Positions 6,201-42,939 of a stretch of DNA of 42,939 nucleotides are shown in pieces (the first letter of the stretch is position 1; every line of letters starts with the position of its first letter). The DNA is taken from the IMG/VR virus record IMGVR_UViG_3300035137_000040, positions 1 to 42,939 of that record; one strand, given 5' to 3'. The stretch is from a virus. Under the pieces are notes generated by a model, which made no database searches, had not been told where the DNA came from, and saw only the letters and a program-made list of their open reading frames with translations. The translations under genes and the position numbers were made by a program.

Positions 6201-8440
6201 TGTTTGCGAAACGCGCCTTAAACGATGCACGGATTCAAAAAGGATTTGACAGGATCTTATCCGTCGATGATTTCAAGCAAACAGTAAAGGAGCTTGAGCC
6301 CGAATTCAAGGAAACGGCAGACAAGCTTTACAAGTACAATGATCAACTTCTTAGTTATCTTGTTGATGCCGGGCGTATAGGCAAGGAGACAGCAGAAAGC
6401 ATACGCGCCAAGAATATGTTTTATGCCCCACTCTATAGATTGATTGAGCAAGAAACCTCCGGGGCGCAAGGATTGGGAAGATCAGCGAACAATGTTTTTA
6501 ATCCAATCAAAAAACTCAAGGGTTCATCCAGGGATATAATCAGTCCTACCGAAAACATTCTGAAAAACACCTATGCCATAATCAACGCCGCTGAGAGAAA
6601 CAGGCTCGGCAATGCTTTGATAAAATTATCAGAAACAGAGGGAATGGGCAAGTTTATTGAGAAAGTACCGTTTCCAATGCGGCCGACAAGGATATTGAAA
6701 GAGGATGTTACAAGACTTTTATCAGGAATCGAAGGCGCGGACCGTGTAAGCCTTGAATCCCTGCCTGAAAATATTATAGCAAATTTCCGGCCGCAATATC
6801 GTGCCGGGGCAAATGAAGCCATTTTCTACAAGAACGGAAAACCGCAGCTTTATCAACTCGACCCTGATCTTTACAAAGCCATAAGCAGCGTCAACGGATC
6901 TGAAATAAACCTGCTTATCAAAGTCCTGGCTTATCCTGCCAAATGGTTGCGGGTCGGGGCCACGACATTCAGCCCTGAATTCGGAATAAGAAATCCCATG
7001 CGGGATCAAATGACCGCATGGATTCAAAGTAAATATGGATTCACACCGGGGGTAGATTTTTTACGCGGCTCTTATCACATCCTTAAAGCTGATGATGTCT
7101 GGCAAAAGTTCAATGCATCAGGGGCGGCACATGCGGCCATCGTGTCTATGGACCGCGATTATCTTTCAAAAAATCTTCGCAGAATGCTGCGCGAGAAAAA
7201 GTTTAAAGGCCTTGTTTTAAACCCCCTTGAATTGTTTCAAAAGTTTTCCGAACTGACCGAGGAAGCAAGCCGGGTAGCTGAATTTGCAAAGGCGATCAAG
7301 CAAGAAGGCGGTGGCCTTGAAGGATTGTTAAAAGGCGGCATGGCAGGTCGTGAAGTTTCATTGGATTTTGCACGTACCGGTGGACCAGGCGCCCGAGCGG
7401 CAAACATGATTTCAGCGTTCTGGAACGCAAGGCTTGAAGGCCTTGACAAAATGTCCAGAACATTTAGGGAACAACCGATTAAAGCCGCGTCAAAGGCTTT
7501 CCTTGGCATTACGCTGCCTTCCCTTATGCTCTGGTGGCTGCAAAAAGATGATCCGGTTTACCAGGAGCTTCCCAGCTGGAGGAAAACCTTATTTTGGAAT
7601 TGGGTATTCCATCGTGAAAATAAAGATCCCTTTGTTTTGTCGCTGCCCAAGCCGTTTGAATACGGTCTTGTTTTCGGAAGCCTGCCAGAGGCCGCGCTTG
7701 ATTGGGCATACCGAGACAATCCGGCCATGTTTAAAGAGACTGCAAAGTCTGTTGCAAAAACCTTTGATCTTGTCCCGATCCCGACAATAGCCATACCGAT
7801 CGGTGAATGGTGGGCTGAAAAGAGCTGGTTTTTTGATAGGCCTACTGTCCCTCGTGATAGGGAAGATCTTGAACCTGTTTTACAATATGGACAGCGGACA
7901 AGCGAAACTGTTAAGCTTGTCGCAAGAGCGATGGACAAGGTGCCCGGCTTGCGTGAAATAGCCTCCCCTTCAAAGATAGAAAACCTAATCCAGGGCCTTA
8001 CGGCCAGCATGGGCCGGACAGGTCTGCAGGGCATGGATTGGCTGCTTAAAACAACAGGGGCAATAGATGTTCCCGAAGAACCGGCTGCGACAGTTTCAGA
8101 TATGCCCGGCATAAGGGCTGTTTTTGCGAGATATCCAAGCGCGAACACGCAAAGCATTGAAAGGTTTTATGATAAATATAATGATCTTAAGCGTGGTTTT
8201 GAATCAGGCAAGGAGCGCGCCGGGATACGCGGGGCAGGCATAAAGGGAACTGGTTTCGGAAGTGTCTATCCAAAAGAAGAAGCAACGGCAAAAACGTTAT
8301 CATTATTGCGCAAAATGGCTAAAAAGACATATGAAGCGGATATCGACGGAGAAGAAAAGACCAAACTACTGAATAATTATTACGTTGCAATGATGAATGC
8401 AGCTCGTCTATATTTTAACTTAAAACCCTATATGGAGTAA
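3299..8440 (+). CDS. Polyvalent ejected protein: adenine-MTase fold, HExxH peptidase, LPD38-like end
   Basis: A 1,713-residue multidomain protein, about 12% of the genome. In order: residues 1-45, a short N-terminal motif with YPQYDDMTDEQIAKGLHRRY, which I recognise from other phage polyvalent or ejected proteins; 210-245 and 350-370, glycine/alanine-rich hydrophobic stretches that could enter membranes; about 505-655, a class I adenine methyltransferase fold with motif I DPTAGTGE (537-544) and motif IV TPPF (596-599), where the usual first residue of (N/D/S)PPY/F is Thr; about 720-860, a zinc-metallopeptidase-like domain with HENAHH (from 760) and a later EGFAEF glutamate; about 1340-1480, a segment like large polyvalent-protein domain LPD38 with a hydrophobic run at 1400-1414. 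Polyvalent proteins of phages and conjugative elements are injected with DNA and protect it or act on the host. Injection is inferred from the family and from the two ejection-type genes before it. Confidence 0.82.
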   Translation: MNLLQFRKKYPQYDDMTDEQIAKGLHRRYYSDLDFGDFSKRIGYTLGAAQETPMDETEKMQRMTPAPSAPEGQMMPDSIGLPNRPQMVSTDGGMGTIQSMGIGAPISSGAIDYLSAEDPTFAPAREPNRYAAQAVEGIKDIARQSMTGYGVGMEQAQKLLERIPAMPGSPVQLARKGYEKLAPMLKEAAQTPSLQPDPAYLQSAGFWEDVVRTGPQILTQIGTGLLTGPAGPTLLMGAQIAGSTYEQAVKNGVSPDRAAKAGIANAIMQAPLESLGINRALKFVKVRGTLLTKLKEAAMTLGNEWLTEFLQSYPEAATTIWAENADETALSAVNKTIDQAVEIGKRGAYEGAVVLPFTAIGMAGGATMQSMRPNVPESIKPPDIETVPRETIGETALRPPEIITDKQKSLMGEEAEKVSIPEFKDTNEAVSFGEKATPEQLAEIKQLEDQARAREAELKAAQDFSDERTNNAYKAQLYREVLEASRGEHPSQRDKRTPGQMLGEKSVAPTEYPITPKRVIDRLVDEADLKPGESVLDPTAGTGEVAQSIKLKEPGVSIATMEINPDLRARLSEQGQNVKGADFLKDQGTYDKIVLTPPFENDFAHLQHAADRLNPGGRAVALISDQTAQSENFETWASSVGANIKPVRLPGVPYDGNIVTIEKPKISGSRPQDAGTEAYEPATDIQKRKAPAVPAGQQAPTDIAAERRHSAIIKRMEDAFHAPVRVGKFRTNKGRRLGVYKPGEKVIRVGSANDIGTVIHENAHHIQDILGWPRNHSFAKEVRAMAYEGAKNINREGFAEFVREYVTDEQSAKSKAPTFYKEFEEKLSKRPDFQNVIIEARQAYNDYKAAPSVAKVGSFVVRGKEGDKRRFPTMGKIYTEMKDSLYPVKKVVDIAKKQGGKIAFQDDPYIVARLLRGWARKAEQFIKHRSFQYDESAPDGVKFTGDGLIKILAPIEREGKTKQLDTYLFAKRALNDARIQKGFDRILSVDDFKQTVKELEPEFKETADKLYKYNDQLLSYLVDAGRIGKETAESIRAKNMFYAPLYRLIEQETSGAQGLGRSANNVFNPIKKLKGSSRDIISPTENILKNTYAIINAAERNRLGNALIKLSETEGMGKFIEKVPFPMRPTRILKEDVTRLLSGIEGADRVSLESLPENIIANFRPQYRAGANEAIFYKNGKPQLYQLDPDLYKAISSVNGSEINLLIKVLAYPAKWLRVGATTFSPEFGIRNPMRDQMTAWIQSKYGFTPGVDFLRGSYHILKADDVWQKFNASGAAHAAIVSMDRDYLSKNLRRMLREKKFKGLVLNPLELFQKFSELTEEASRVAEFAKAIKQEGGGLEGLLKGGMAGREVSLDFARTGGPGARAANMISAFWNARLEGLDKMSRTFREQPIKAASKAFLGITLPSLMLWWLQKDDPVYQELPSWRKTLFWNWVFHRENKDPFVLSLPKPFEYGLVFGSLPEAALDWAYRDNPAMFKETAKSVAKTFDLVPIPTIAIPIGEWWAEKSWFFDRPTVPRDREDLEPVLQYGQRTSETVKLVARAMDKVPGLREIASPSKIENLIQGLTASMGRTGLQGMDWLLKTTGAIDVPEEPAATVSDMPGIRAVFARYPSANTQSIERFYDKYNDLKRGFESGKERAGIRGAGIKGTGFGSVYPKEEATAKTLSLLRKMAKKTYEADIDGEEKTKLLNNYYVAMMNAARLYFNLKPYME

Positions 8441-15599: not shown

Positions 15600-16107
15600 C
15601 GTCGTTTTTCTCCTTAAAAAGTTTAAGTTGTTTGCTTGAAATATCCCTTAGTTTCCTGTGCTCATCCATGTGACAACTGTGGCATAAAAGAATTAAATTC
15701 GTTTCACGCCAAGCGGCCCACGGGTCAACCTCGCTGTGGATGTAATCAATTAACGGTATTATGTGATGGTGTTCACATCTTTCTGTCTTCAACCATCGGC
15801 TTTTTACTGTCGGATCCTCTATACGATTCCCGTTTTCATCTTTGACTAAATTAGATCTGAGAGTAATTTTCTTGCCGCATATTTGGCATTTTTCTCCGCG
15901 GGTCTTTAATAAATATCGTCGCGTTTCATCAGGCCAAAAAAGGCGCGAGAACTCTTTAAAGCATGCATGGTGCCAATTTTTAAAATTTGGTTCACCGTTT
16001 TTTTTGAGGATACAGCATCCACACCATCTGCATATACCTGGTTCGCTGTTCCAGTGTATCGGCGCTGGACCGAATCTGTGACCTTTATAATTAAAATATG
16101 TTTTCAT
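15589..16107 (-). CDS. HNH endonuclease
   Basis: A 172-residue protein with an HNH core in the C-terminal half: CQICGKK, then CEHHHIIPL, then NLILLCHSCHMDEH. The two CxxC pairs bind a structural zinc, and the HH plus Asn/His form the catalytic beta-beta-alpha-metal site. An extra Cys group in the N-terminal half (CRWCGCC) may bind another zinc. It lies between the MBL-fold and nuclease genes with an ATGA overlap upstream. It could be a free-standing homing endonuclease that has settled in the recombination operon or a functional part of it. Confidence 0.82.
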   Translation of the reverse strand: MKTYFNYKGHRFGPAPIHWNSEPGICRWCGCCILKKNGEPNFKNWHHACFKEFSRLFWPDETRRYLLKTRGEKCQICGKKITLRSNLVKDENGNRIEDPTVKSRWLKTERCEHHHIIPLIDYIHSEVDPWAAWRETNLILLCHSCHMDEHRKLRDISSKQLKLFKEKNDDEE

Positions 16108-16790
16108 AATGCTGCATAAACCGGCTTGCCGGTCAAAGCTTCGATCTCTTTGACAAACAAATCTGCGTCAGAATTTTCGCGGCTCATGTGTATTAAGTGG
16201 ACTTCTCTCACTTTGCTCAGATCATTTGCCTGCAAGAACTGCTTGCATCTTTCAAGATTCATGTGGCTTCTATAGAGACGCTTTTTGCGTTCAGGATCAA
16301 GCCCAGGGGAAAGGGTGCGCTTGCTCCAATTGCATTCTATGGCGATGATTGTCAGCCCCTGGAAGCGGTGATGAATGTAAAATGTATCTGTTGCGAACAA
16401 CAGCTTGTCGGTTCCATCTGTAACCAGGTAGCCAAGTGACCCAGGGCAATCATGCTGTGTTGGAAACCCTAATGCCGTCCATCCGGCAATCCTGAATTGT
16501 TTCAATGGTTCAATGACGTTGATACGATGATGATCGGCAATGTTCGTGCCCTCCGCTGTTTCAGCGCTCATAAAACAATTGATCCCGGCCCTGGCGAGAT
16601 CGCGCACACCGGAGAGATGGTCCATATGTCGATGGGAGATAAGAGCGCCGTCAATCGACCTCAGATTGAAGTTGAAGGCCTGCTTTATTTTCCTAATCGG
16701 CACTCCGGCATCTATGATCAGGGAGCCTTTTGAATTGACTACCTGATATAGATTGCCGGAGCTGCCGCTATGGTGGGGGATGAATTGCAT
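16104..16790 (-). CDS. MBL-fold metallohydrolase (YycJ-like)
   Basis: A 228-residue metallo-beta-lactamase-fold protein. Metal motifs in order: SHRHMDHLSG (His53, His55, Asp57, His58), THDCPGSLGY, ATDTF, SHMNL and HMSRENSD near the C-terminus. The length and motif set match the small YycJ/WalJ-type nucleases and hydrolases often found next to RecT in phages. It starts directly after the RecT stop without its own Shine-Dalgarno, so it is probably translated by coupling. Likely nuclease or phosphodiesterase in recombination; substrate not known. Confidence 0.83.
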   Translation of the reverse strand: MQFIPHHSGSSGNLYQVVNSKGSLIIDAGVPIRKIKQAFNFNLRSIDGALISHRHMDHLSGVRDLARAGINCFMSAETAEGTNIADHHRINVIEPLKQFRIAGWTALGFPTQHDCPGSLGYLVTDGTDKLLFATDTFYIHHRFQGLTIIAIECNWSKRTLSPGLDPERKKRLYRSHMNLERCKQFLQANDLSKVREVHLIHMSRENSDADLFVKEIEALTGKPVYAAL

Positions 16791-21888: not shown

Positions 21889-22041
21889 ATGACCGATCTT
21901 GAAAGAGCGCAAGAGGCGCTGTATATCCTAAGGGATTTCAACAATATTAAAAACGACACAGATGCCTATCTATGGGACATTATCGAATGGGGACTCGGCG
22001 AACGCAGAGAGAGGCCTGTTCCGCAACAATACGGGATGTAA
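21889..22041 (+). CDS. 50-residue hypothetical protein
   Basis: A short frame with AGAGGT five bases before ATG. The product is helical and acidic, with YLWDIIEWGLGERRERPVPQ near the end. It sits between the XRE regulator and the zinc-ribbon repeat protein in the rightward early operon. No family is recognised, but the ribosome site and operon position support it. Confidence 0.58.
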   Translation: MTDLERAQEALYILRDFNNIKNDTDAYLWDIIEWGLGERRERPVPQQYGM

Positions 22042-22069
22042 AACAATAGAATGCTGGGGGGGGTGTTGC

Positions 22070-23167
22070 ATGGAAAAGATCGAATCTCCGTGCCTGAACT
22101 GCAAGCACCAGGATGGTTGTCACAGGACTGATAGATTTTCAGATTGTCCAGAACGTCTTGATTATCTTCTTAAATCATCCGGCCATGAGCCTCATCACCG
22201 GGGGTTTAAACCGGATGTTCCGGGTTTTGAGCCGGCCGATCCGGATTACATTGCCACGGGGCCAAAAATCATACGGCCGTATCATAATAGAAAGGCAAAG
22301 ATGGAAACAGATAAGAAATCTGTGTTTGATGAACTTAAGGAAGTTGAAGAACTGGCTAAAAATACACCTCCAGAAAAATCAACAATTCATAAATACGAAC
22401 TTGGGGATTATAATGGGTACATCTTTGAGGACGGTTCTACCCTACCGAAAACGAAAAAGTGTGCGGAATGCAATATTATAGCATCAGATGAAACCGAAAT
22501 AGAGCGCTTCTTTAATAAGCATGCCAGGACAAAGGATGGTTATGCCAATATATGCAAGCTCTGCCATGGTAAAAAAATAAGAACGTCCCGGATGTCAAAA
22601 AAGAATAAACCGGAAAATAAAAAATCATCAAAAACTTTGGCGACAACCGGACTTGTAGCATCATCTATTTATCGTGAATGCAAAATATGTTCTCGCTTCG
22701 CAACCTCTGAAGCCGAAATTGATGAAATATTTTCGAAAAATCCATTATCTAAAGATGGTTATCATAAGATCTGTAAAGTATGCCATGGTAAAAATGTCAA
22801 AAAGGGTATGAAATCTAAAAAGAAAACAAAAGAAACCATAGTGTATAAAGAACAAGAAGACATTGTTAATATACAGACAAAAACCTGCTCGGATTGCGGT
22901 AAGGTATACAAAGGCGCTGAGGTTATTTTAAAGAATTTCTCTCCGCACAACACCACCGCCGATGGACTATTCAAGTACTGCAAGGCCTGCAACAAAATCC
23001 GGCTGAAAAAATCAATCCATAAGGCAAATAATGAAAACTGTGTCATGGTGGATTTCTCAGAAAACATGGATTTGTTAGATAATCTGCGTGAAATGGCCGC
23101 CGCTGCTTTCCGGTCACCGGAGCAGCAGGTTCTTTATTTGATATCGAATCAAAGAAAGGCAAACTGA
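22070..23167 (+). CDS. Triple zinc-ribbon repeat protein
   Basis: A 365-residue protein starting at 22070 after GGGGGGGGTG. Residues 1-30 hold a first Cys cluster (Cys8, 11, 17, 26). Three copies of one module follow at about 129-168, 203-240 and 271-310: CxxC, a helix ending in FF or F, then DGxxxxCKxC (pairs 131/134 and 162/165; 204/207 and 235/238; 273/276 and 304/307). This module occurs singly beside HNH or other nuclease domains in phage and bacterial proteins; here it is in tandem without a nuclease. Lys-rich linkers between copies suggest nucleic-acid binding. The C-terminal 50 residues are an acidic helical tail. It precedes the replication genes. Confidence 0.74.
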   Translation: MEKIESPCLNCKHQDGCHRTDRFSDCPERLDYLLKSSGHEPHHRGFKPDVPGFEPADPDYIATGPKIIRPYHNRKAKMETDKKSVFDELKEVEELAKNTPPEKSTIHKYELGDYNGYIFEDGSTLPKTKKCAECNIIASDETEIERFFNKHARTKDGYANICKLCHGKKIRTSRMSKKNKPENKKSSKTLATTGLVASSIYRECKICSRFATSEAEIDEIFSKNPLSKDGYHKICKVCHGKNVKKGMKSKKKTKETIVYKEQEDIVNIQTKTCSDCGKVYKGAEVILKNFSPHNTTADGLFKYCKACNKIRLKKSIHKANNENCVMVDFSENMDLLDNLREMAAAAFRSPEQQVLYLISNQRKAN

Positions 23168-27043: not shown

Positions 27044-27541
27044 GTGACTGACGAAAATAAAAAACATCCCACCAGACGGATTGGCCGCCCCACAAAGTAC
27101 AAAAAACGTTATTGCAGGGATATTATCGAGTTTTTCGATGTCGCTGCTGTCGTTGAACGTACAAAAACGATAACTACGAAAAACGGCAGCGTCATTGAGG
27201 AACCGGTTTATTTGCCGTGCATTTTACCCACTGTTGTTGGATTTGCAAGGAAGTTGGGGGTTTGCAGAGATACATTGCACGAGTGGGCATCAAAACATAA
27301 AGATTTTTCCGACGCTTTTAAACGTGCGAAGGAGCTACAGGAGGAGATTTGGAGCCAGAATAGCTTGCAAGGCCTCTACAATCCACGGTTTTCAGAGTTC
27401 TTCGGTATCAACATTATGGGGTGGAACAAGCGGGAGATTATCGAACAACATCATAGCGGCGAAGTAAAACATACGCACGATTTAAGCGACGACCTCAAAA
27501 CTGTGCTAAGCGATGTTTACGACACGCAGACAGGCTCATGA
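27044..27541 (+). CDS. terS: Terminase small subunit
   Basis: A 165-residue protein with a GTG start and GGAG six bases upstream. The N-terminus is basic (GRPTKYKKRYCRDIIEFFD), then LPTVVGFARKLGVCRDTLHEWASK forms a helix-turn-helix, and a long helix (DAFKRAKELQEEIWSQNSL) suits ring assembly. FFGINIMGWNKRE is typical for this class of small terminases. It recognises phage DNA for packaging and passes it to the large subunit, whose gene overlaps by 29 bases. Confidence 0.83.
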   Translation: MTDENKKHPTRRIGRPTKYKKRYCRDIIEFFDVAAVVERTKTITTKNGSVIEEPVYLPCILPTVVGFARKLGVCRDTLHEWASKHKDFSDAFKRAKELQEEIWSQNSLQGLYNPRFSEFFGINIMGWNKREIIEQHHSGEVKHTHDLSDDLKTVLSDVYDTQTGS

Positions 27542-29072
27542 TTTTTATGCAGATTTTTTGCGGCAGGCTGAAAAAACGGAGCAGGTCGAACCGGCCCTGG
27601 CCGAACTCGGGCGCCGGGATCTGTTTTTTTTGCTCGTTTATTTGTGTTGGCGTAAAGACATTGACAGGGATTGGCTCTTTGAACGCTGCATGGAAGTCAG
27701 GCAAAATCCAAACGGGCATTTAGATCTATGGGCCAGGGAGCATTACAAATCAACGATTATCACATTCGGGCTGACAATTCAGGACGTATTGAACGACCCG
27801 GAAATAACGATCGGCATATTCTCAATCACCCGTCCAGGCGCCAAGAAATTTCTCTATCAAATCCGCGAAGAACTGAGCACAAACCAAAAGCTGATACAAC
27901 TGTATCCGGATATTTTATGGGCAAACCCGGGCAAGGAAGCCCCAAAATGGAGCCTCGACGAGGGGATCATAGTCAAACGCAAGGGCAATCCGAAAGAGGG
28001 CACGATAGAGGCGCACGGCCTTGTGGACGGCATGCCTACTGGCCGTCATTTCAAAATCAGAGTCTACGACGATGTGATCGACGAGGCCAACGTAACCAAT
28101 CCGGACATGATCAAAAAGGCAACCAAGTCATGGGAGCTGTCCCTCAACCTGGGGTCAGCGCAGCCTTGCCGGATGTATTCGGAAATGAATATCGAGCGAT
28201 ATGCTGGGACTCGTTATCATTACAACGATTGTTACGCGGAGATTATGCGCCGGAATGCCGCAACAAAGCGTATCTATCCTGGTACAGTCGATGGCACACC
28301 GGAAGGAGAGCCTGTCCTGTGGACGCGGGAGTTCATGGCGACCAAGCGGCGCACCATGGGCTCATATGTTTTTGCATGCCAAATATTACAAGACCCGAAG
28401 GCTGACGAAGTGCAAGGATTTAAACAAGATTGGATCAAAACCTATAAGCGCATTGACCCGGATGCGCTTAATTTGTATCTGCTTTGCGATCCTGCCGGCG
28501 AGAAGAAAAAATCAAACGATTACACAGTGCAACTTATTATCGGCCTTGGATCTGATCAAAATTATTATCTGGTTGCCGGTATCCGTGATAGATTAAACCT
28601 GTCTGAGCGCACGAAAAAGCTATTCCAATTCCATCGGAAATATCGTCCGATAAATGTCGGTTACGAAAAATATGGCAAGGATTCTGACATAGAGCATATC
28701 GAGGACAAGCAGGAGATTCTCAATTATCGTTTTAACGTTGAGGCCCTGGGTGGGTCAACGCCAAAGCTGGATAGAATTAGGAAATTGATACCACTGTTTG
28801 AGGCGGGACGGTTTTATCTTCCTGAAAAGCTAATGTTTTTGGACAACGAGGGGAAACAGCGCGATTTGATCAAAGAATTCATCAATGAGGAGTTCGACGC
28901 GTTTCCGGTTGCCGTGCATGATGATATTTTAGATTGCATGGCCCGTATCGTTGATGATAAGCTCGGGGCTGAATTTCCGCTCGGGGGGATGGATTTGAAG
29001 GACATTAATCTGACTGACATCGAGATTTCCCAGCTCCCGGGCAACTCAGGATTCATAGGGGATATGGTTTGA
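27513..29072 (+). CDS. terL: Terminase large subunit
   Basis: A 519-residue packaging motor. The ATPase domain has a deviant Walker A AREHYKST (74-81) and Walker B VYDDVIDE (184-191). The C-terminal RNase-H-like nuclease has CDPAGE (Asp326) and HDDILD (Asp470/471) as metal-binding positions. Together with a circularly closing assembly this fits packaging from concatemers, probably by headful, although the class cannot be fixed without phylogeny. It overlaps terS. Confidence 0.92.
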   Translation: MFTTRRQAHDFYADFLRQAEKTEQVEPALAELGRRDLFFLLVYLCWRKDIDRDWLFERCMEVRQNPNGHLDLWAREHYKSTIITFGLTIQDVLNDPEITIGIFSITRPGAKKFLYQIREELSTNQKLIQLYPDILWANPGKEAPKWSLDEGIIVKRKGNPKEGTIEAHGLVDGMPTGRHFKIRVYDDVIDEANVTNPDMIKKATKSWELSLNLGSAQPCRMYSEMNIERYAGTRYHYNDCYAEIMRRNAATKRIYPGTVDGTPEGEPVLWTREFMATKRRTMGSYVFACQILQDPKADEVQGFKQDWIKTYKRIDPDALNLYLLCDPAGEKKKSNDYTVQLIIGLGSDQNYYLVAGIRDRLNLSERTKKLFQFHRKYRPINVGYEKYGKDSDIEHIEDKQEILNYRFNVEALGGSTPKLDRIRKLIPLFEAGRFYLPEKLMFLDNEGKQRDLIKEFINEEFDAFPVAVHDDILDCMARIVDDKLGAEFPLGGMDLKDINLTDIEISQLPGNSGFIGDMV

Positions 29073-33958: not shown

Positions 33959-35137
33959 ATGCCTGTTATTCTTGGATTAAGAGACGTTGCCGATTATTCG
34001 AGCAATGAGCGTCCTAAAAGTTGGCGTGGTGTTATTCAGCGGGAAATGCCCCAGGTGGCCCCTCTGAATGTCATGCTGGCCGGTGTGAAAAAAGAAGCCG
34101 TTGACGATCCCGAATTCAACTGGTTCGACAAGGGCATTCAGACGCGTCACACCGCCATTAACTATTCAACCGGTTACGATTCAACCGCAACCACGATCAC
34201 CGTTGATGCCGCGAAATATTTTCGTGCCGGTGATCTGATCAAAAACGTTTCAACCGATGAGGTTATGCGCGTCACGGCAGACCCGACCGCCTCAACCACA
34301 TTGATTATTGCCCGTGGCTGGGGATCGACAGCCGCCGCCCTGACTGACAATGACGTGCTGTTCTGCGTCGGCGCGGCCATCGCGGAAGGTGCGGATGTCC
34401 GCAGCGGTCTGTACATCGATCCGACCAAGCGTTACAACTATACGCAGATCTTCCGGCATCCGTTGAGCCTGACCAACACCGGTAAGGCTGTCAAAATGCG
34501 CACAGGGGCGCCGTACCAGGAAATGAAACGGGACGCCTTTGAGCAGCATGTCATGGATATGGAAAGAGCGTTTTTCTTTGGCGTCCGCTATGAGGACACA
34601 ACCGGAGATGAGCCCAAACGTTCAACCGGAGGATTGGTCCAGTACATCACGACCAATGTGACGACTGTTTCTGGTGGAACTTTGACACATGCCGCGTGGT
34701 CTTCGTTCCTGAAAACACTTTTCACATACGGCAGTAACGAAAAAATTGTCTTCTGCGGCAATCAGTTCTTGTCCGTCATGGAACAAATGTCGGAGTTCAG
34801 GGGCCAATTCAACCTGATGAAGGACACCGATGTCTATGGAATCCAGCTGAAAAAATGGCAAACAACGTTCGGAACCGTGTATTTCAAACTGCATCCTCTG
34901 TTCAATGAGGTTACGGTGCATAGCAAGATGGCCGTTTTCGTTGAACCAAAGCGTTTGATTTACAAGTACCTGGCCGGCAATGGTGTCAACCGGGATACCA
35001 AACTGCTCAAGGACCGTCAGTCACCGGGGCAAGACCGGACCGTTGATGAGTTCCTGACAGAGTGCGGGTTGGAAGTTCACAACGAGCGCACCATGGGCAT
35101 CCTGAAAAACGTCAACGCATTCAGCACAACCTCTTAA
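33959..35137 (+). CDS. Major capsid protein (HK97 fold, SU10/DUF5309-like)
   Basis: A 392-residue protein with a strong AAGGAG site, right after scaffold. It begins DVADYSSNERPKSWRGVIQ and contains EFNWFDKGIQ, VDAAKYFRAGDLIKNVSTDEV (an inserted beta segment), FEQHVMDMERAFFFG, KIVFCGNQFLSVMEQM and KLHPLFNEV, which I recognise from the SU10-type/DUF5309 capsid family. It builds the icosahedral shell. Hairpins at 35145-35213 follow the gene. Confidence 0.87.
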   Translation: MPVILGLRDVADYSSNERPKSWRGVIQREMPQVAPLNVMLAGVKKEAVDDPEFNWFDKGIQTRHTAINYSTGYDSTATTITVDAAKYFRAGDLIKNVSTDEVMRVTADPTASTTLIIARGWGSTAAALTDNDVLFCVGAAIAEGADVRSGLYIDPTKRYNYTQIFRHPLSLTNTGKAVKMRTGAPYQEMKRDAFEQHVMDMERAFFFGVRYEDTTGDEPKRSTGGLVQYITTNVTTVSGGTLTHAAWSSFLKTLFTYGSNEKIVFCGNQFLSVMEQMSEFRGQFNLMKDTDVYGIQLKKWQTTFGTVYFKLHPLFNEVTVHSKMAVFVEPKRLIYKYLAGNGVNRDTKLLKDRQSPGQDRTVDEFLTECGLEVHNERTMGILKNVNAFSTTS

Positions 35138-35236: not shown

Positions 35237-35683
35237 ATGAACGAAACAAACTATTACCACAAAATCAAGGTCATGAAGCCCGTGGATGCTGTCAAATGGG
35301 CTGAGGAAAACCCTGATATTGTTGAAGGGTTGGACGAAAACTCGGCGGCCATGCTCAGAAAGAAGCTGATCAAGCAAGATGTTGAGCCCCATATCGGATC
35401 GAAGCCGCCTGAAACCGATCTGCCCGGAAGCAAGCCACCTGCCGATGGCGACCAAGCAAAACCTGCACCCGAGTATGTCGGCCACAAGCTTTCAAGATTC
35501 ATTTGCAACAAGTTCCCCAACAAATGGATTTTGGTCGGCAACAAAGAAATTCGCTTCAAAAATGGCGAGTTCAAGACCGATGACCCCCAGCTCATTGAGG
35601 CAATCTGTAATGAGCCGGACTTCGGCCTGTGGATTCTGGCCGATGACCCCGAATTGCGCAAGCGCTACCGGAGGCGGCGTTAA
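35237..35683 (+). CDS. Capsid-adjacent protein, unknown
   Basis: A 148-residue protein with AAGGAAGG before ATG. The N-terminal third is helical (KPVDAVKWAEENPDIVEGLD), the middle is a Pro/Gly/Lys-rich linker, and the C-terminal 55 residues form a small domain (SRFICNKFPNKWILVGNKEI, then FKNGEFKTDD). Similar linker-plus-small-domain proteins follow capsid genes in several phages and may be decoration or head-completion proteins. It is coupled by TAATG to the sulfotransferase-like gene. Confidence 0.66.
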   Translation: MNETNYYHKIKVMKPVDAVKWAEENPDIVEGLDENSAAMLRKKLIKQDVEPHIGSKPPETDLPGSKPPADGDQAKPAPEYVGHKLSRFICNKFPNKWILVGNKEIRFKNGEFKTDDPQLIEAICNEPDFGLWILADDPELRKRYRRRR

Positions 35684-36213
35684 TGCAGACAGTCAGAGAA
35701 CCTAAAACCATTGTCGTTCTGGGGATGCATCGCAGTGCCACGAGCCTGATGGCTAAGGGCCTGAACGATGCCGGCGTCAATATGGGTGAGCACCTGCTTG
35801 GAAAGCACGAATCAAACCCCTGGGGGCATTTCGAAGATATTGAGTTCATGCAGCTCAATGAAGCTATTTTGAAAGCTGCCGGGGGAAGCTGGGATAGGCC
35901 GCCAAGTGAGGAACAGATACTTTTGCAGCGCCAGGCATTTGACGAGAGGATTCATGCTCTGGTCAAAGCAAATGACGCCAATGTCGACCCGGACTATCCG
36001 CTTTGGGGGTGGAAAGATCCGCGCACGACTTTAACCATCAAGCTTTACCTGCCGCATTTGACAAACCCTTATTTTTTCTTCTGTTTTACGCACCCGGTCA
36101 AGGTCGGAATCAGTCTTCACGAACGAGACGGAACCGATATTGAATGGGGTGCCGCGCTGGCCAGGGAGTACAACAGAAGGCTGTTAAACTTCATCGAGGA
36201 ATTTAACGCATGA
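35683..36213 (+). CDS. Sulfotransferase-like P-loop protein
   Basis: A 176-residue protein. VVLGMHRSATS (11-21) is the phosphosulfate-binding loop of PAPS-dependent sulfotransferases; GHFEDIEFMQLNEAIL and GWKDPRTTLTIKLYLPH follow in the order known from bacterial sulfotransferase-family proteins, and the KDPR segment resembles the second PAPS contact. It is shorter than most (about 250-300), lacking part of the C-terminal region, so the acceptor pocket may be minimal. Predicted reaction: sulfate transfer from PAPS to a sugar or other hydroxyl. It opens a coupled enzyme cassette between capsid and adaptor genes. Confidence 0.78.
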   Translation: MQTVREPKTIVVLGMHRSATSLMAKGLNDAGVNMGEHLLGKHESNPWGHFEDIEFMQLNEAILKAAGGSWDRPPSEEQILLQRQAFDERIHALVKANDANVDPDYPLWGWKDPRTTLTIKLYLPHLTNPYFFFCFTHPVKVGISLHERDGTDIEWGAALAREYNRRLLNFIEEFNA

Positions 36214-36932
36214 TCCGCACCAAGCCATGGAATTTAGAGGATATGGAAACGCCTCAGTTCCAGGCCGTAAACAACCTGTTCAATAAATTTTTCGGTCCCG
36301 GCTGGCCGCAGGTTCCGCTTCGCCGCTGGGAGTATGTCGCGGCTGTAATTTTCACCGGGGTATTGGTCAATAACCGAGCGTATCGGGTTCTTGAAGCCGG
36401 ATCCGGTTGTTCGGTGTTCACACCGTTTCTGGCCTTGAACGGATTCCATGTGGATTCGTTCGATATGGGAAACAAGGATCAGCGCGTTGAAAGAAATATC
36501 CGCTACAAAATAAACGATCTGGTGACAGAGCACAATATGGATCTAAGGGATATCAAGTTCCCTAACAACCATTTTGAGTTTGTTTTTTGCATTTCAGCTA
36601 TTGAGCATGTAAACGCCGGCAGGTTCGCTACCGATCCGGATGCAGGCGACACGGGCGATGATAAAGCCATGATAGAACTCGCCAGGGTCCTGAAGCCGGG
36701 CGGCATTATGTATCTGACCACGGATTACGCTGGACGATATTACCCGCCGCCCGGTCTTTGGGATACCGGAAGCCATAGGATTTATGACAAGCGCCGAATT
36801 GTCGAGCTGGTTGATTCTGTCGGGCTTAAATTCCTTGGAGAAACGCAATTTGATATGGATTGGTCGAAACTCAATAGCCTGGAGCCGGCAGGCTATGATT
36901 ACACAACCTTTGCGATAACGCTGACAAAATAA
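36210..36932 (+). CDS. Class I SAM-dependent methyltransferase
   Basis: A 240-residue protein overlapping the previous gene by ATGA. Motif I RVLEAGSGCSVFTPFLA (59-75), an acidic residue in VDSFDMG at the end of strand two, FCISAIEHV (127-135), then ELARVLKPGGIMYLTTD, all typical of class I methyltransferases of the Methyltransf_11/25 type. No NPPY motif, so not an adenine DNA enzyme. It probably methylates a small molecule or sugar, in line with its glycosyltransferase and radical SAM neighbours. Confidence 0.82.
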   Translation: MIRTKPWNLEDMETPQFQAVNNLFNKFFGPGWPQVPLRRWEYVAAVIFTGVLVNNRAYRVLEAGSGCSVFTPFLALNGFHVDSFDMGNKDQRVERNIRYKINDLVTEHNMDLRDIKFPNNHFEFVFCISAIEHVNAGRFATDPDAGDTGDDKAMIELARVLKPGGIMYLTTDYAGRYYPPPGLWDTGSHRIYDKRRIVELVDSVGLKFLGETQFDMDWSKLNSLEPAGYDYTTFAITLTK

Positions 36933-38215
36933 TGAAAATCTGCCTCATAAATCTTCCAAATCCAGCCCTGGCCGAGCCGTGGTCAAATTTCCCGCTCGGC
37001 CTCGGCTATGTTGCCGCCGCAATTGAGCGCCGGGGTTACGACATTCAGGTGCTGGATTGGTGCGAAGGATTTTCAGGCGGTATCCCGCAGGCCGATATTT
37101 ATGGTATGCAGATCACAGCTCCCCATGTAAGCATCGCCAGAACCCTGGCCGAAAATATTAAAAAGATCAACCCCAGGGCGGTTGTTGTCGCAGGTGGCCC
37201 ACAGATGATTGTCGATCGTGACCGCTTTTTATCAGATCCTAACTTTGATTCCGTTGTTGTCGAAGAAGCGGAGTTCTCATTTTATGAGCTGGTCAGGCAT
37301 TACGAGCTTTATGGACAAGTTGAGCGTATCTATTGGAATCCACCGGTTAAGCTGCTTGATGATGTTCAATTCCCGGCAAGACATTTGTTCCCCGGGTTTA
37401 AAGAAAACGCCCTGAGAACTCACCAGCTATTAAAAGGGGATTACACAGAGGGCGGCCAGACAACGATTATCGCAACCCGCGGTTGCCCCTATTCGTGTTC
37501 GTTCTGTGCTCCTCATTCGCGCAAGCTTCGCTACAGGAGCCCCGAAAACGTTATCGCCGAGATCAGATCAATCATTGATCAGTTCGGAATCTATCAATTC
37601 AAATGGCAGGATGATACATTCACAGTGAATAGAAAGTGGGTGCTGGAGCTCTGCCAGCTCATCAGAAAGCAGCTTCCAAAGACATACCACAGGGCACACA
37701 CCAGGGTAAATGTGTTTGACGATGATATGGCGGCCGCCATGTATTCGGCCGGCTTCAGGGTTCTGTGCTTTGGCATAGAGAGCTTTTCCCAGCGCCTGCT
37801 GGATAACAATACCAAGGCAATCACAATTGATCAGGTCGAAGCAGCGTTGTCCATAGCCAGAAAGTATGGATTCAAGACCATCGGCTTTCTTATTTTCGGC
37901 ATGCCGGGGGAGGACCGTGAAAGCGTTGAGGAAACAAAATCCGGCATCCTGCGCAACAAACAGAATTTGGATTATCTGAACCTTGCAACCATGGTGCCGC
38001 TGCCGGGTACACCGATTGCCAAGAACCCTGATCGATTCGGCTGCGAAATACTTGATCATGATCCTGGAAGAGCCTGGATCGTAAACCATGATTCAAACAA
38101 CGACATTTTCATTAAAACCAAAGGGGTTAGCATCGAAGAGATGCAACGCCTGAAAGTTGAAATGTACCAATTCCTGCGGGATGAAGGATATTCAAGGCCG
38201 GAATGGAAAAATTAA
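36932..38215 (+). CDS. Cobalamin-domain radical SAM enzyme
   Basis: A 427-residue protein coupled by TAATG. Residues 1-130 resemble a B12-binding fold (PLGLGYVAAAIERRGYDIQV, VVVAGGPQMI), though the DxHxxG cobalamin ligand motif is not seen, so cobalamin may be base-off or absent. CPYSCSFC (185-192) gives the CxxxCxxC ligands of the 4Fe-4S cluster, followed by FQWQDD-type and VFDDDMAAAM segments, GFRVLCFGIES and FLIFGMPGED, all radical SAM landmarks of the BchE/P-methyltransferase class. Such enzymes do difficult C- or P-methylations and rearrangements. Very unusual inside a phage head operon. Confidence 0.86.
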   Translation: MKICLINLPNPALAEPWSNFPLGLGYVAAAIERRGYDIQVLDWCEGFSGGIPQADIYGMQITAPHVSIARTLAENIKKINPRAVVVAGGPQMIVDRDRFLSDPNFDSVVVEEAEFSFYELVRHYELYGQVERIYWNPPVKLLDDVQFPARHLFPGFKENALRTHQLLKGDYTEGGQTTIIATRGCPYSCSFCAPHSRKLRYRSPENVIAEIRSIIDQFGIYQFKWQDDTFTVNRKWVLELCQLIRKQLPKTYHRAHTRVNVFDDDMAAAMYSAGFRVLCFGIESFSQRLLDNNTKAITIDQVEAALSIARKYGFKTIGFLIFGMPGEDRESVEETKSGILRNKQNLDYLNLATMVPLPGTPIAKNPDRFGCEILDHDPGRAWIVNHDSNNDIFIKTKGVSIEEMQRLKVEMYQFLRDEGYSRPEWKN

Positions 38216-38937
38216 AATACAGCATACTTGTTTGCGCCTACTGCAATGTTGATCAGTTCAATAGGTTTCTAATGACGGCATGCTCACAGGATTTTGATGA
38301 TTATGAAGTCGTTGTCTTAGACAACGCCACGCCGAATAATGACATCATGCTCTCATGTGATACCGCAAGATCCTGGCTCGGAATCGATAACTTAACTTAT
38401 ATCAGGTTGTCAAAAGCAGCAAAGCGTTGCAAAAACATCGCCCAGGGAATTAATATCGCGGCCGTCCGCGCCAGGGGTGAGCGTTTTGTTATTGTAGCCG
38501 ATTCAAATGTGTTGCTCTCTGATAACCTGCTCAGCGGAATTGATAAACACAACGGCAGGGAAGTTGTCATTTCAGGCGCCGGAACGGATATCAAGATCAG
38601 TCCGGACGGCAATATCAATACGGAATACGCCGCCAGCGACCCGACAATGATAGAGCGTGAGAACGCCAGGCTTTTAAAAAGAATGGGCTGGCCCGATGAT
38701 CCGTTGAAATTGAAGCTGATTCCTGACACGTACCGCGTACCTGATCCACACAATCAATTTGATGTTTATGTAATCAGCCTGCATAGATCGCAGTTCAGCG
38801 AATACGATGAAGCGTTTGCTCATTGGGGGCCGTATCACGCCCACTATGTAAAAAACAAATGCATGGAATACGGGCACCGCAGGCTAAAGAATGTAAGAAT
38901 AATCCACCAATACCACAGGGTCTGGAAGGATGAATAA
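38203..38937 (+). CDS. Family 2-like glycosyltransferase
   Basis: A 244-residue GT-A fold protein overlapping the radical SAM gene by 13 bases. YSILVCAYCNVDQFNRFLMT and DDYEVVVLDNATPNN are the nucleotide-sugar end of GT2 enzymes; ARGERFVIVADSNVLLSDNL carries the DxN/DxD-like metal site, and a C-terminal helix pair with HWGPYHAHY completes the domain. It is short and soluble. Acceptor unknown; cassette context suggests a glycan or virion protein. Confidence 0.78.
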   Translation: MEKLKYSILVCAYCNVDQFNRFLMTACSQDFDDYEVVVLDNATPNNDIMLSCDTARSWLGIDNLTYIRLSKAAKRCKNIAQGINIAAVRARGERFVIVADSNVLLSDNLLSGIDKHNGREVVISGAGTDIKISPDGNINTEYAASDPTMIERENARLLKRMGWPDDPLKLKLIPDTYRVPDPHNQFDVYVISLHRSQFSEYDEAFAHWGPYHAHYVKNKCMEYGHRRLKNVRIIHQYHRVWKDE

Positions 38938-40330
38938 CAGTCTTAAGAACAGATTGAACATAACGCCTCTTGTTTCGATCATTATACCGGTTATTCGACC
39001 GGAAAACATGCCGTTTATGGTCAAGACGATACAAAAGCAAGCCCAGGTCCACGAAGCCGTTTATGAGATCCTAACCGCTGAGGATAAGGATAGAATCGGG
39101 TGCCCCAAGATGGTCAAGGCCCTTACGGATCAGTCCAGAGGATCAATGGTTATGTTCCTTGGTGACGACTGCATCCCCTGGAAAGGCTTTTTAAAATACG
39201 CCATAGAGGCCATGGATACCTTGCCGGACCGCTGGGGGCTTGTCGGGTTAAACGATATGCACCATGACGGCAACAAGCTGGCTACTCATTGGATGGCTCA
39301 CAAGCGGCTTTTAAAGCCCCTGGGCGGCGAGTTCTTTCATACTGGCTATGTGCATTGTTTCAGCGACCAGGAGCTTAACCACAGGGCCAAGGAGCTTGGC
39401 CGGTACGTGTGGGCTGAAAAGGCCAAGATCAAACATCGTAATCCGATCATAGACAAAAACTATAAGCTTGATGATGATTACAGGCGTGTCTATGCACCCG
39501 AAATCTACGAAGCGGACAAACAACTTTTCTTAAAAAGACAGGCATCCGGCTGGACTTATAAAAAGCCGATCGACATAAAACCAGGGCATGAACGCAAATT
39601 AGTGGCAATCGGTCTTCCGCTTTATGGGCCAAAACCAAGGTTTGAAAAATTCGAAAAATGCCTTCACGAAATGCGTCAATACAGCCTCGCCCATGGGATA
39701 GGCACTGTACTTATAAAAAATCACGGCTCAATCGTCCATCATAGCCGGAATAAAATAATCGATATGGTCAGGCGTGAGTATCCAAAATGTGAACATCTGT
39801 TCATGGTGGACGATGATATGACATTCCCACCGGATACGCTGGTGAAACTTCTCTCGCATGAAAAAGAGTTCGTTTGCTGCAATGCCTACCGCAAAGTCAC
39901 GCCTTATGCCCCGATTGCTCAGATTTGGAATATCGAAACCGAGGGGTTTAATACCATCCATGTTGATCCGGCAAAGGGCAAGATCAGGCGTATCTCAACA
40001 ATAGGCACAGGTGTTGTCCTGATCAATATGCAGGTTTTCAACAAGATCCCTTTCCCCTGGTTCGAATTCGCCTATGCACCTGATGATAATAAAGAAAACA
40101 AGCATCTGATTGAAGGCATGGTCCTAATCGGCGAGGACATGAATTTTTGTTTTAAAACGGCTGATGCCGGGGTACCGCTGTATTGTGATTTTTCAATAGA
40201 AGTCGGTCACATCCTTGCCTATGAAAACGGTAAGGAAAAAATCATTAACTGGAAAACACACGAGGAAGCATGGCAGAAACTCGACAAACAATTAGGGAAA
40301 GAGTCCAGGCCTTTGTCGGCACAGCGATAA
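38930..40330 (+). CDS. Two-domain glycosyltransferase
   Basis: A 466-residue protein with two GT-A-like domains. Domain one (about 10-200): VSIIIPVIRPENMPFMVKTI, GSMVMFLGDDCIPWKGFL with GDD as DxD site. Domain two (about 225-435): VAIGLPLYGPKPRFEKFE, CEHLFMVDDDMTFPPDTLVK with DDD, then IGEDMNFCFKTADAGVPLYC. This double architecture suggests sequential transfer of two sugars or a bifunctional polymerase. It overlaps the adaptor gene by 61 bases at its 3' end, marking the border of the cassette with the virion genes. Confidence 0.78.
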   Translation: MNNSLKNRLNITPLVSIIIPVIRPENMPFMVKTIQKQAQVHEAVYEILTAEDKDRIGCPKMVKALTDQSRGSMVMFLGDDCIPWKGFLKYAIEAMDTLPDRWGLVGLNDMHHDGNKLATHWMAHKRLLKPLGGEFFHTGYVHCFSDQELNHRAKELGRYVWAEKAKIKHRNPIIDKNYKLDDDYRRVYAPEIYEADKQLFLKRQASGWTYKKPIDIKPGHERKLVAIGLPLYGPKPRFEKFEKCLHEMRQYSLAHGIGTVLIKNHGSIVHHSRNKIIDMVRREYPKCEHLFMVDDDMTFPPDTLVKLLSHEKEFVCCNAYRKVTPYAPIAQIWNIETEGFNTIHVDPAKGKIRRISTIGTGVVLINMQVFNKIPFPWFEFAYAPDDNKENKHLIEGMVLIGEDMNFCFKTADAGVPLYCDFSIEVGHILAYENGKEKIINWKTHEEAWQKLDKQLGKESRPLSAQR

Positions 40331-40902
40331 ACGCAACGCTGAACGAAGCCATCAAAAAGGCCCACAAAGAGCTGCAGCGCAAGCACAGCTATCGCTTCAT
40401 GGAAACATCGAGCACTATCAGTGTTTCCGAGGGCGATACAACGTTTACCCTGCCGAGCGATTTTAAAGAAATCGTTAACCCGGAAATGAGCGATAACGAA
40501 GGGACAGGCTATGTGCGCATGCGCGGCGTTATCAAAGCCGGCATAGATTCAAGAGATACGAGCGAAGAAGGTAGGCCGCTTTTGTTTAGAATCTGGGCCG
40601 GGACAGGCTATCTGTATGCTCAGGCCGACCAAGATTACACGTTTAATCTTGAATACATCCGGTGGATTACAGAGCCGTCCGATAATGAATACACAAGCGA
40701 CGATAATGCCCAGAGCTTTATCGACGAATGCTATGATTTCCATGAATACAAGGCCTTGGCCGCAGGTTACAGGCGTTTAAATAAATTCGATTCAGCCAGG
40801 GAATATGAACAGCTTGCGCAGGTCAAACGTCTTGAGCTTGAGCATGATGATATCGAAATAGCTTTGGCTGGAATAGACTTAAAAATGGAGCTACCGGGAT
40901 GA
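40270..40902 (+). CDS. Head-tail adaptor protein
   Basis: A 210-residue protein with AGGAAG just before ATG. Helical start (RVQAFVGTAINATLNEAIKK, then AHKELQRKHSYRFM), a beta part with TFTLPSDFKEIVNPEM and a helical C-terminus (FHEYKALAAGYRRLNKFDSA). This is the pattern of adaptor/head-completion proteins that dock below the portal in P22-like and SU10-like phages. It overlaps the fibre gene by ATGA. Confidence 0.74.
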   Translation: MAETRQTIRERVQAFVGTAINATLNEAIKKAHKELQRKHSYRFMETSSTISVSEGDTTFTLPSDFKEIVNPEMSDNEGTGYVRMRGVIKAGIDSRDTSEEGRPLLFRIWAGTGYLYAQADQDYTFNLEYIRWITEPSDNEYTSDDNAQSFIDECYDFHEYKALAAGYRRLNKFDSAREYEQLAQVKRLELEHDDIEIALAGIDLKMELPG

Positions 40903-42305
40903 AAAATTACAAAAAAGCATTTGCCATTTTTTGGATTGCAGCGTTTCTGGCAATACCGGCGTTTATGTGGGCAGCAGAAACATGGAATGAAGCCACACCT
41001 GCAGGCGATGAATCTCCTACGCTTGGAGATGATCGCACAAGGGAATTAAAACGGGCGATTCGTGAAAGGCTGGCCGTTGATCATGATTTCGAGGCAAGTG
41101 AAAGCCCTGCTTTCGGTGATGCCAATGCAACTATAGGAATGCATGAAGGCATCAGGCTTAAAGAACAGGCTTCCTCGCCAACCACCATTGCTGACCAGGC
41201 AGGGTTCTGGGCGGCTGATGATGGGTCGGGTAACACCGAGCTTTTTATGCGTGGCCCAAGCGATGCATCGGCCGTGCAATTAACAGAAAGTAATTGTGGG
41301 AAGATAAAATCAGAGGCCGTTGATTTTAGTAAAGACGGCACGATTACAATAACGGATACTGGTGATGTTGATTACCAGTTTCCTTTGGCAATATATAATC
41401 CTAATTTGTCAGCAACAAAACATGCCGCTATTCCGATAGGGGTAGCCGGTAGTCAATACAACAGCGGGATCATCCAATTTTACTACGCCGGCGACGGGAG
41501 TACTGACAATTTAATGAGTTTTGGACTTTTCGGGTATTCAAATGCTCTGATAATCGATGGTTCATCGAATATAGGCATCGGTGGCCAAAGCGATGGGGCA
41601 AAACTTAAAGTGACCGGCACATCCGAAATAACTGATACCCTGACGTTGAGCAAAAGTAGCGGAAATGGGTTGGTGGTAACGTCGAACGTTGATTTTAATG
41701 GAAACCAGGATGTTGCTGGCACATCCAATATTCACGATACCTTGACTCTTTCAAAGGCGTCCGGTAACGGATTATCGGTAACCAATAACGCCTATATCGG
41801 CAATGATGTCAATGTGGCCGGTGATGCCAACATCACTGGTGATATTGAATTTAATGCGATAGTCAGTGGAGCGACAAAAGAGGAAATCAACTCCCGCTGC
41901 GATGGAGTGCCGTCACATGACACTGACAGCAACGCAGGCGGCACGGTAGGAGCCGGTACAACACAGTATAATACATTAGACCTTGGGACTGTGACATCCG
42001 GGGATTATGGTATTTTGATTGGAACTGCTACTTTGAAGAAAATCACCAACGCCGGACTCGCCGGAATTAGTATTGATAAAGCATCAGGCACCGGGAGTTT
42101 CAGTGCAAATGGCGTTTCAAATGGTTCTGTTTCAAATATTGGCTATTGGGACGTAATGCCGGTGACTGTTGATACAAGCGTTGTTTGCCCATTTACTATT
42201 ACAGGTACGGGTACACTGGTCATGGAATTAAATGGATATTCGTCGATTAGTAGCACAGAATTTAGCAGTATGTATTTAAGAGTGTATTGGATCAAGAAAC
42301 AATAG
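40899..42305 (+). CDS. Fibre-like protein with Sec signal peptide
   Basis: A 468-residue protein. Residues 1-27 form a clear Sec-type signal (KKAFAIFWIAAFLAIPAFMW followed by AAE as a cleavage site), which virion proteins normally lack. Just after it, WNEATPAGDESPTLGDDRTR and ELKRAIRERLAVDHDF form the N-terminal module common in fibre-like proteins of short-tailed phages. The middle has two copies of a DTLTLSKxSGNGLxVT repeat (beta-helical fibre shaft), and the C-terminus is a Gly/Ser/Thr-rich beta domain. Host recognition is likely; the signal suggests export or display at the cell surface. Confidence 0.76.
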   Translation: MKNYKKAFAIFWIAAFLAIPAFMWAAETWNEATPAGDESPTLGDDRTRELKRAIRERLAVDHDFEASESPAFGDANATIGMHEGIRLKEQASSPTTIADQAGFWAADDGSGNTELFMRGPSDASAVQLTESNCGKIKSEAVDFSKDGTITITDTGDVDYQFPLAIYNPNLSATKHAAIPIGVAGSQYNSGIIQFYYAGDGSTDNLMSFGLFGYSNALIIDGSSNIGIGGQSDGAKLKVTGTSEITDTLTLSKSSGNGLVVTSNVDFNGNQDVAGTSNIHDTLTLSKASGNGLSVTNNAYIGNDVNVAGDANITGDIEFNAIVSGATKEEINSRCDGVPSHDTDSNAGGTVGAGTTQYNTLDLGTVTSGDYGILIGTATLKKITNAGLAGISIDKASGTGSFSANGVSNGSVSNIGYWDVMPVTVDTSVVCPFTITGTGTLVMELNGYSSISSTEFSSMYLRVYWIKKQ

Positions 42306-42358: not shown

Positions 42359-42939
42359 ATGAAATATTTCTACAAATTATCACCGCACGGCGGCCTTTAC
42401 ACGGATAAACCAGCTCATGAGATTCCCCTGAACTGCACACCGGATTGCACTGCTGTTTGGACCAGATACGGGAGGATAGAGCGTGTATTCGGAAAAGAAA
42501 AAAACGCCGATACGCAGTTGGACGGAACCGCCATCTTAAGACACGCGATCTTTATCGATAGCAGCCAGAACGAATACAATTTAGCTATAACAAATACAAA
42601 GGCTTATAAAAAAGACGGCAGCGATTATACGTCAATTCAGGGCTCGACTGATTTCACATCAACGGTTGATTCAATGTCCTGTGTCAGCCATTATGATTCA
42701 ACCGGATCGGAGATAGCCGTTATTTCCAACATAGTTGACGGCATGAAAAAATGGACCGGAGCCGGAAATATTGCCGATCTTGACGGGAGCCCGCCTAAAG
42801 CTAAAGTGCTGCTACCGTTTAAAGGTTATCTTTTGGCCCTTGATGTTGTTGAATCAGGAGACAGGGACAGAAGAAAAATCAGACACAGCGCACTGTACAA
42901 TGGAGAATCATGGTCTTCATCAAACTATATTTACTTGAA
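42359..42939 (+). CDS. Nozzle/tail-hub-like virion protein, 5' part (continues at 1-1121)
   Basis: The first 193 residues of the 524-residue protein described at 1-1121. ATG at 42359, 53 bases after the fibre stop. The start (KYFYKLSPHGGLYTDKPAHE, then CTAVWTRYGRIERVFG) and later blocks of about 40 residues look like beta-propeller blades. Since 42813-42939 duplicates 1-127, the true gene is 42359-42812 joined to 1-1121, total 1,575 bases. Confidence 0.74.
   Translation, partial: MKYFYKLSPHGGLYTDKPAHEIPLNCTPDCTAVWTRYGRIERVFGKEKNADTQLDGTAILRHAIFIDSSQNEYNLAITNTKAYKKDGSDYTSIQGSTDFTSTVDSMSCVSHYDSTGSEIAVISNIVDGMKKWTGAGNIADLDGSPPKAKVLLPFKGYLLALDVVESGDRDRRKIRHSALYNGESWSSSNYIYL
42813..42939. repeat. 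Terminal direct repeat, right copy (circle overlap)
   Basis: Identical to positions 1-127. See the left copy. Removing one copy gives a circular unit of 42,812 bp. Confidence 0.93.

Follow-up and report, generated by a model that had tools for sequence, protein, structure and literature searches.

A candidate virion-glycosylation cassette in the head operon of an SU10-like phage

Phage particles are usually regarded as bare protein, and the locus described here raises the question of what a sulfotransferase-like protein (ST), a methyltransferase (MT), a radical SAM enzyme (rSAM), and two glycosyltransferases (GA and GB) are doing among the head genes of a phage. The genes lie in a virus contig, IMG/VR record IMGVR_UViG_3300035137_000040, which was analyzed from position 1 to 42,939; this whole 42,939-nucleotide stretch is referred to below as the window. 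Its ends form an exact direct terminal repeat of 127 bases (1-127 is identical to 42813-42939), and a virion gene of PHROG 3287 is divided between both ends of the contig, so the record is most likely the complete genome, ca. 42.8 kb long, of an SU10-like phage. Its head module is of the SU10 type, with matches for the portal (SU10_portal, 1.6e-15), the major capsid protein (33959..35137, plus strand; SU10_MCP, 1.6e-42), and the adaptor (40270..40902, plus strand; SU10_adaptor, 1e-11). We argue below that the enzyme cassette probably is a virion-glycosylation system with sugar tailoring.

The capsid gene is followed by gene X (35237..35683, plus strand), whose 148-amino-acid product is 43% identical over 88 residues to its counterpart in L003, a relative with a ca. 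62% identical capsid protein. Between gene X and the adaptor gene lie the five enzyme genes, all on the plus strand and in the order ST, MT, rSAM, GA, GB. A preliminary description of this DNA had proposed just such an arrangement, with an overlap at every junction; the open reading frames were found where it placed them, and the overlaps (TAATG, ATGA, TAATG, 13 bases, 8 bases, and 61 bases) were confirmed from the coordinates and the sequence. We regard all five as truly coding, since L003 has a homologue of each, which aligns along most of the gene at 38-54% identity. Two of the proteins fall clearly into known classes, and the motifs first picked out by eye in them were borne out by family matches above curated cutoffs. 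MT (36210..36932, plus strand) is a class I SAM methyltransferase, which carries motif I (EAGSG) and matches Methyltransf_11 (1.9e-9; 38.4 bits against a cutoff of 21.2) and Methyltransf_23 (2.8e-8). rSAM (36932..38215, plus strand) joins a B12-binding domain (PF02310, 2.8e-10) to a radical SAM core (Radical_SAM, 2.5e-23) whose 4Fe-4S motif, CPYSCSFC, is of the CxxxCxxC form and is conserved in L003. By its N-terminal domain the enzyme is classed as B12 type and is predicted to bind cobalamin. It belongs to no named NCBIfam equivalog, as the HpnJ, AprD4, and P-methyltransferase relatives all scored far below their cutoffs, and a single-sequence scan of viral contigs with rSAM returned L003 only. 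Matches in Streptomyces phage SF3 and in MT835514 were set aside as distant (22.8-28.2% identity); the one in SF3 adjoins a thymidylate kinase gene and has no glycosyltransferases beside it.

The glycosyltransferases differ in how firmly they can be assigned. GA (38203..38937, plus strand) is a GT2-like GT-A protein, 38% identical to its L003 homologue, whose match to Glycos_transf_2 (0.0017; 18.7 bits) falls below the cutoff of 23.3. GB (38930..40330, plus strand; PHROG 1574, 5.6e-20) is a tandem GT-A glycosyltransferase. Three GT-A metal sites had been proposed for the pair; the two in GB (LGDD and VDDD) stand, and their residues D79, D80, D294, and D296 are invariant in 40 homologues, but the putative site in GA is D-x-N (VADSN, or VFDPN in its relative) rather than DxD. 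The best structural matches of the predicted tandem GT-A fold of GB (Foldseek E values down to 7e-14) include LH3, ColGalT1, Mimivirus R699, polysaccharide synthases, and STIV A197 (1.4e-9), and a profile comparison with Mnn9 gave 1.6e-4. LH3 and ColGalT1 are protein (collagen) glycosyltransferases. The two viral proteins, A197 and R699, share the GT-A fold of GB or of its C-terminal domain (target-normalized TM-score of 0.65 for A197). However, GB is a tandem protein with only ca. 10-16% identity to them, and the hosts and virions differ.

ST (35683..36213, plus strand) is a short sulfotransferase-fold protein of 176 amino acids, and its assignment comes from its family and its predicted structure. 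The window copy itself has no Pfam match, found no viral contigs in a single-sequence scan, and has no relevant match among PDB sequences; however, 12 of 21 scanned family members match Sulfotransfer_3, and a family profile run against the PDB gave one weak match, to mycobacterial STF9 (2z6v; E = 0.037). The family is compact, with 34 IMG/VR loci and hundreds of bacterial stretches, and the bacterial homologues are often fused to long proteins. In the AlphaFold2 model (pLDDT, 94.9), the nine best matches by Z score are all sulfotransferases, headed by the tyrosylprotein sulfotransferases TPST1 and TPST2 (Z scores of 9.3-9.5, with 9.5 over 147 residues), whereas P-loop kinases score 7.9 and below. 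The likeness to tyrosylprotein sulfotransferases and Sulfotransfer_3 proteins extends from the fold to the 5'-PSB loop, the catalytic-type glutamate, the KDPR motif, and the serine and second arginine of the 3'-PB motif, although ST is only 176 residues long. Thus, the family is very probably one of sulfotransferases.

Whether the window copy still sulfates anything is less certain. It has the PAPS loop (GMHRSATS) noted in the preliminary description, together with E51 and KDPRT; R17 in the 5' loop and E51 are each found in 119 of 120 aligned homologues, and the window protein keeps both, as it keeps S144 and R148 (the serine and second arginine of the 3' motif). However, its 3'-PB motif has degenerated to FTHPVKVGIS. 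Position 136, the first arginine of the 3'-phosphate-binding FRDP motif, is Arg in 118 of the 120 rows and a gap in one; only the window has Thr (codon ACG). This arginine presumably contacts the 3'-phosphate of PAPS, and because of its loss (R136T), sulfation by this copy is uncertain.

In the preliminary description, the five genes were treated as a unit. L003 has homologues of all five, but they are split there between two sites (rSAM, GA, and MT upstream of the terminase; ST and GB flanked by gene X and the adaptor gene), and elsewhere among the relatives that share the SU10-like capsid the set is partial or absent. The five genes are thus no fixed unit, and their occurrence apart from one another in close relatives, which the preliminary description had named as grounds for refutation, is borne out in part. 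In L086, a 42.3-kb record, ST and GB lie between capsid and adaptor, and a search of that record detected no rSAM, MT, or GA; L097 has a single glycosyltransferase domain at the capsid-adaptor site; and in L004, gene X is followed directly by the adaptor, with no cassette genes at the site. Based on these gene contents, ST-GB appears to be the core at the capsid-adaptor junction and rSAM-GA-MT an add-on. Eleven of 85 SU10-like capsid loci, that of Microcystis phage Mel-JY34 among them, carry a GB-type glycosyltransferase gene immediately downstream of the capsid gene (some of the loci are near-duplicates). The collections were scanned with short peptide patterns and many contigs are fragments, so that absence is weak evidence and genes that seem to be missing may fall outside the contig. 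In five loci, GB overlaps the start of the adaptor gene, by 4 to 65 bases, an arrangement shared by L003, L086, L097, and L129. A separate observation concerns the large terminases of the window (27513-29072) and of L003 (L003:4045-5532), which show no similarity by tblastn, though portal and capsid proteins are 46-60% identical; this suggests that the packaging module has been swapped.

GB-family genes also occur in unrelated siphophages, where, among the best 80 of 89 related stretches found by an alignment scan, they mostly lie directly upstream of the gene for the major tail protein. In these 80, with the longest open reading frame on each side taken mechanically as the neighbor and related loci counted along with independent ones, the following gene matched the major tail protein families PHROG 158 (31 of 52), PHROG 1407 (11), and PHROG 10528 (3), which may overlap. 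The preceding gene matched Methyltransf_11 in 15 of 58 cases, and others encoded a glycosyltransferase, a CmcI-type enzyme, an epimerase, or a sulfotransferase. Individual loci come close to the set in the window. L083 reads rSAM, a sulfotransferase-methyltransferase fusion (L083:8685-9962), a long GB, and the major tail protein; L080 and L081 read rSAM, one or more methyltransferases, GB, and the tail protein; and L224, a locus in a Lutibacter assembly, reads ST, the N-terminal and C-terminal parts of GB, and the tail protein. In L176, L183, and L205, an HK97-type major head gene is followed by a gene of ca. 162 codons, a GB domain, and ST. The radical SAM enzymes of L080-L083 match Radical_SAM only, with no match to the B12-binding family, and the enzyme set therefore seems, from its domain makeup, to have come together on more than one occasion. 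L088 has a methyltransferase, a sulfotransferase, and two glycosyltransferase-like genes in a row (L088:9420-11750), in a region of replication and nucleotide metabolism away from structural genes.

Gene identities, folds, co-inheritance, and a conserved position beside major virion genes are thus direct observations, and glycosyltransferases are linked to virion structural genes in SU10-like and unrelated phages alike. The nearness of the GB fold to protein glycosyltransferases, together with this fixed position, suggests that virion proteins expressed from the same operon are glycosylated. What follows on enzyme activities, sugar, acceptor, and benefit is inference. GB, its translation coupled to that of the adaptor gene, would act with GA to attach a short chain of sugars to one of the major structural proteins of the operon. 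MT would O-methylate the sugar, the B12-type radical SAM enzyme would C-methylate or deoxygenate it, and ST, if still active, would sulfate it from host PAPS, with rSAM-GA-MT serving as a mobile add-on to ST-GB. A coat varied in this manner may alter adsorption, masking, or the surface charge of the particle.

The acceptor would be the capsid protein or adjacent neck and fiber proteins and, in siphophages, the major tail protein. Besides the capsid protein, a candidate is the fiber- or tail-like protein encoded at 40899..42305 (plus strand), so named from its position and from an N-terminal similarity, seen by eye, to a 336-residue protein of L086. A signal peptide on this protein is probably a start-site artifact, as the L086 homologue starts with MAETWNE. 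The N-terminal extension of gene X was also considered as an acceptor, since it seemed to be present with glycosyltransferases and absent without them; it was rejected because L086 has ST-GB but no extension. The C-terminal CN(x)FP module of gene X is kept, by its aligned motifs, in L003, L097, and L004.

Some observations run against a virion target. The rSAM-GA-MT genes of L003 lie outside the head operon, the L088 set is in a replication region, L004 has no cassette genes at the site, and the sulfation layer in particular is called into question by the missing, otherwise near-invariant arginine of the window ST. Synteny with structural genes may mean only that the enzymes are made late, and need not imply that they act on the virion. 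An alternative target is a glycan of the host surface (lipopolysaccharide or capsule), which the enzymes would remodel in late infection and so prevent superinfection or keep progeny from adsorbing again to debris. A role in changing the surface polysaccharides of the host has been proposed for polymorphic phage glycosyltransferase clusters (PMC7824862), and the spread of ST homologues through bacterial genomes, often within long proteins, would suit such a role. However, no membrane or carrier-lipid enzyme family was matched among the cassette proteins scanned, and the genes are coupled to, and in unrelated phages recur beside, capsid and major tail genes; we consider this explanation unlikely. 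Less probable still is a direct, glycan-independent modification of virion polypeptides, in which ST would sulfate tyrosine and the radical SAM enzyme would C-methylate a residue. The TPST1/2 matches of ST and the presence of the RiPP radical SAM protein ApyD (2e-32) among the best NCBIfam matches of rSAM are in keeping with it, but neither similarity is close or reaches a curated cutoff, fold likeness does not fix the substrate, and in close relatives ST and rSAM accompany glycosyltransferases. Decoration of a modified DNA base by the glycosyltransferases, MT, and ST, to evade restriction, is very improbable: putative hypermodification clusters with overlapping enzyme classes, including glycosyl- and sulfotransferases, have been proposed (Iyer 2013, as cited in PMC10829341), but the genes of the window lie in a late structural operon, and the subset of its open reading frames that was scanned yielded no hydroxymethylase, TET/JBP, or thymidylate synthase homologue or other base-oxidizing enzyme. 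The position of the genes thus fits neither the host surface nor DNA well, and the recurrence of the enzyme set beside the major tail protein favors glycosylation of virion proteins, with tailoring of the sugar. Of the late modifications first proposed from the sequence (of capsid, fiber, or cell surface), one directed at the virion held up as the best reading, given that the enzyme classes recur in relatives and, independently, beside tail and capsid genes of unrelated phages.

The preliminary description also stated that no such phage system had been described. This is true only in part, as glycosylation of mycobacteriophage virions, capsids included, is established (Freeman 2023, as cited in PMC11256854 and PMC13313380), and in Rhodococcus phages a glycosyltransferase with a methyltransferase has been read as virion glycosylation (PMC13313380). 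In common with the cassette, the mycobacteriophage (Che8-type) systems have phage-encoded glycosyltransferases that modify virion proteins, and methyltransferase genes are read as part of them; the excerpted descriptions (PMC11256854 and PMC13313380) mention neither a sulfotransferase gene nor one for a B12 radical SAM enzyme, and the glycosyltransferase genes of Maravista are placed near the 3' end of the genome, whereas those of the window phage lie beside the capsid gene. In the open-access literature searched, neither a sulfotransferase nor a B12 radical SAM enzyme was found in a phage virion glycosylation cassette, and this added layer therefore appears to be new. Similar sets beside shell or tail genes of unrelated phages suggest that such coats have been repeatedly built and renewed. 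More broadly, one glycosyltransferase family keeps its place beside the major tail or capsid gene in phages that are not related to one another, with methyltransferase, sulfotransferase, and radical SAM partners that can be exchanged; this suggests that virion coats of variable chemistry are common among environmental phages. We put forward only tentatively the bolder idea of a recurrent, independently assembled coat pathway in which sugars on the capsid or tail tube are sulfated, O-methylated, and radically C-methylated, which would be the first case of a virus that encodes the means to sulfate a glycan or protein of its virion. With a likely acceptor named (the major tail or capsid protein), the role of late phage glycosyltransferases, a long-standing question, becomes testable in phages that are in culture, for example Microcystis phage Mel-JY34.

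Three further genes of the window deserve mention. A metallo-beta-lactamase-fold protein (16104-16790, minus strand; Lactamase_B_2, 2e-15) has a weak, below-cutoff match to the anti-Pycsar protein Apyc1 (9e-4). A polyvalent protein of 1713 amino acids (3299-8440) combines LPD38 with an embedded methyltransferase-like domain, and a 401-residue protein (21962-23167) matches the Lar-like restriction alleviation and endonuclease VII families.
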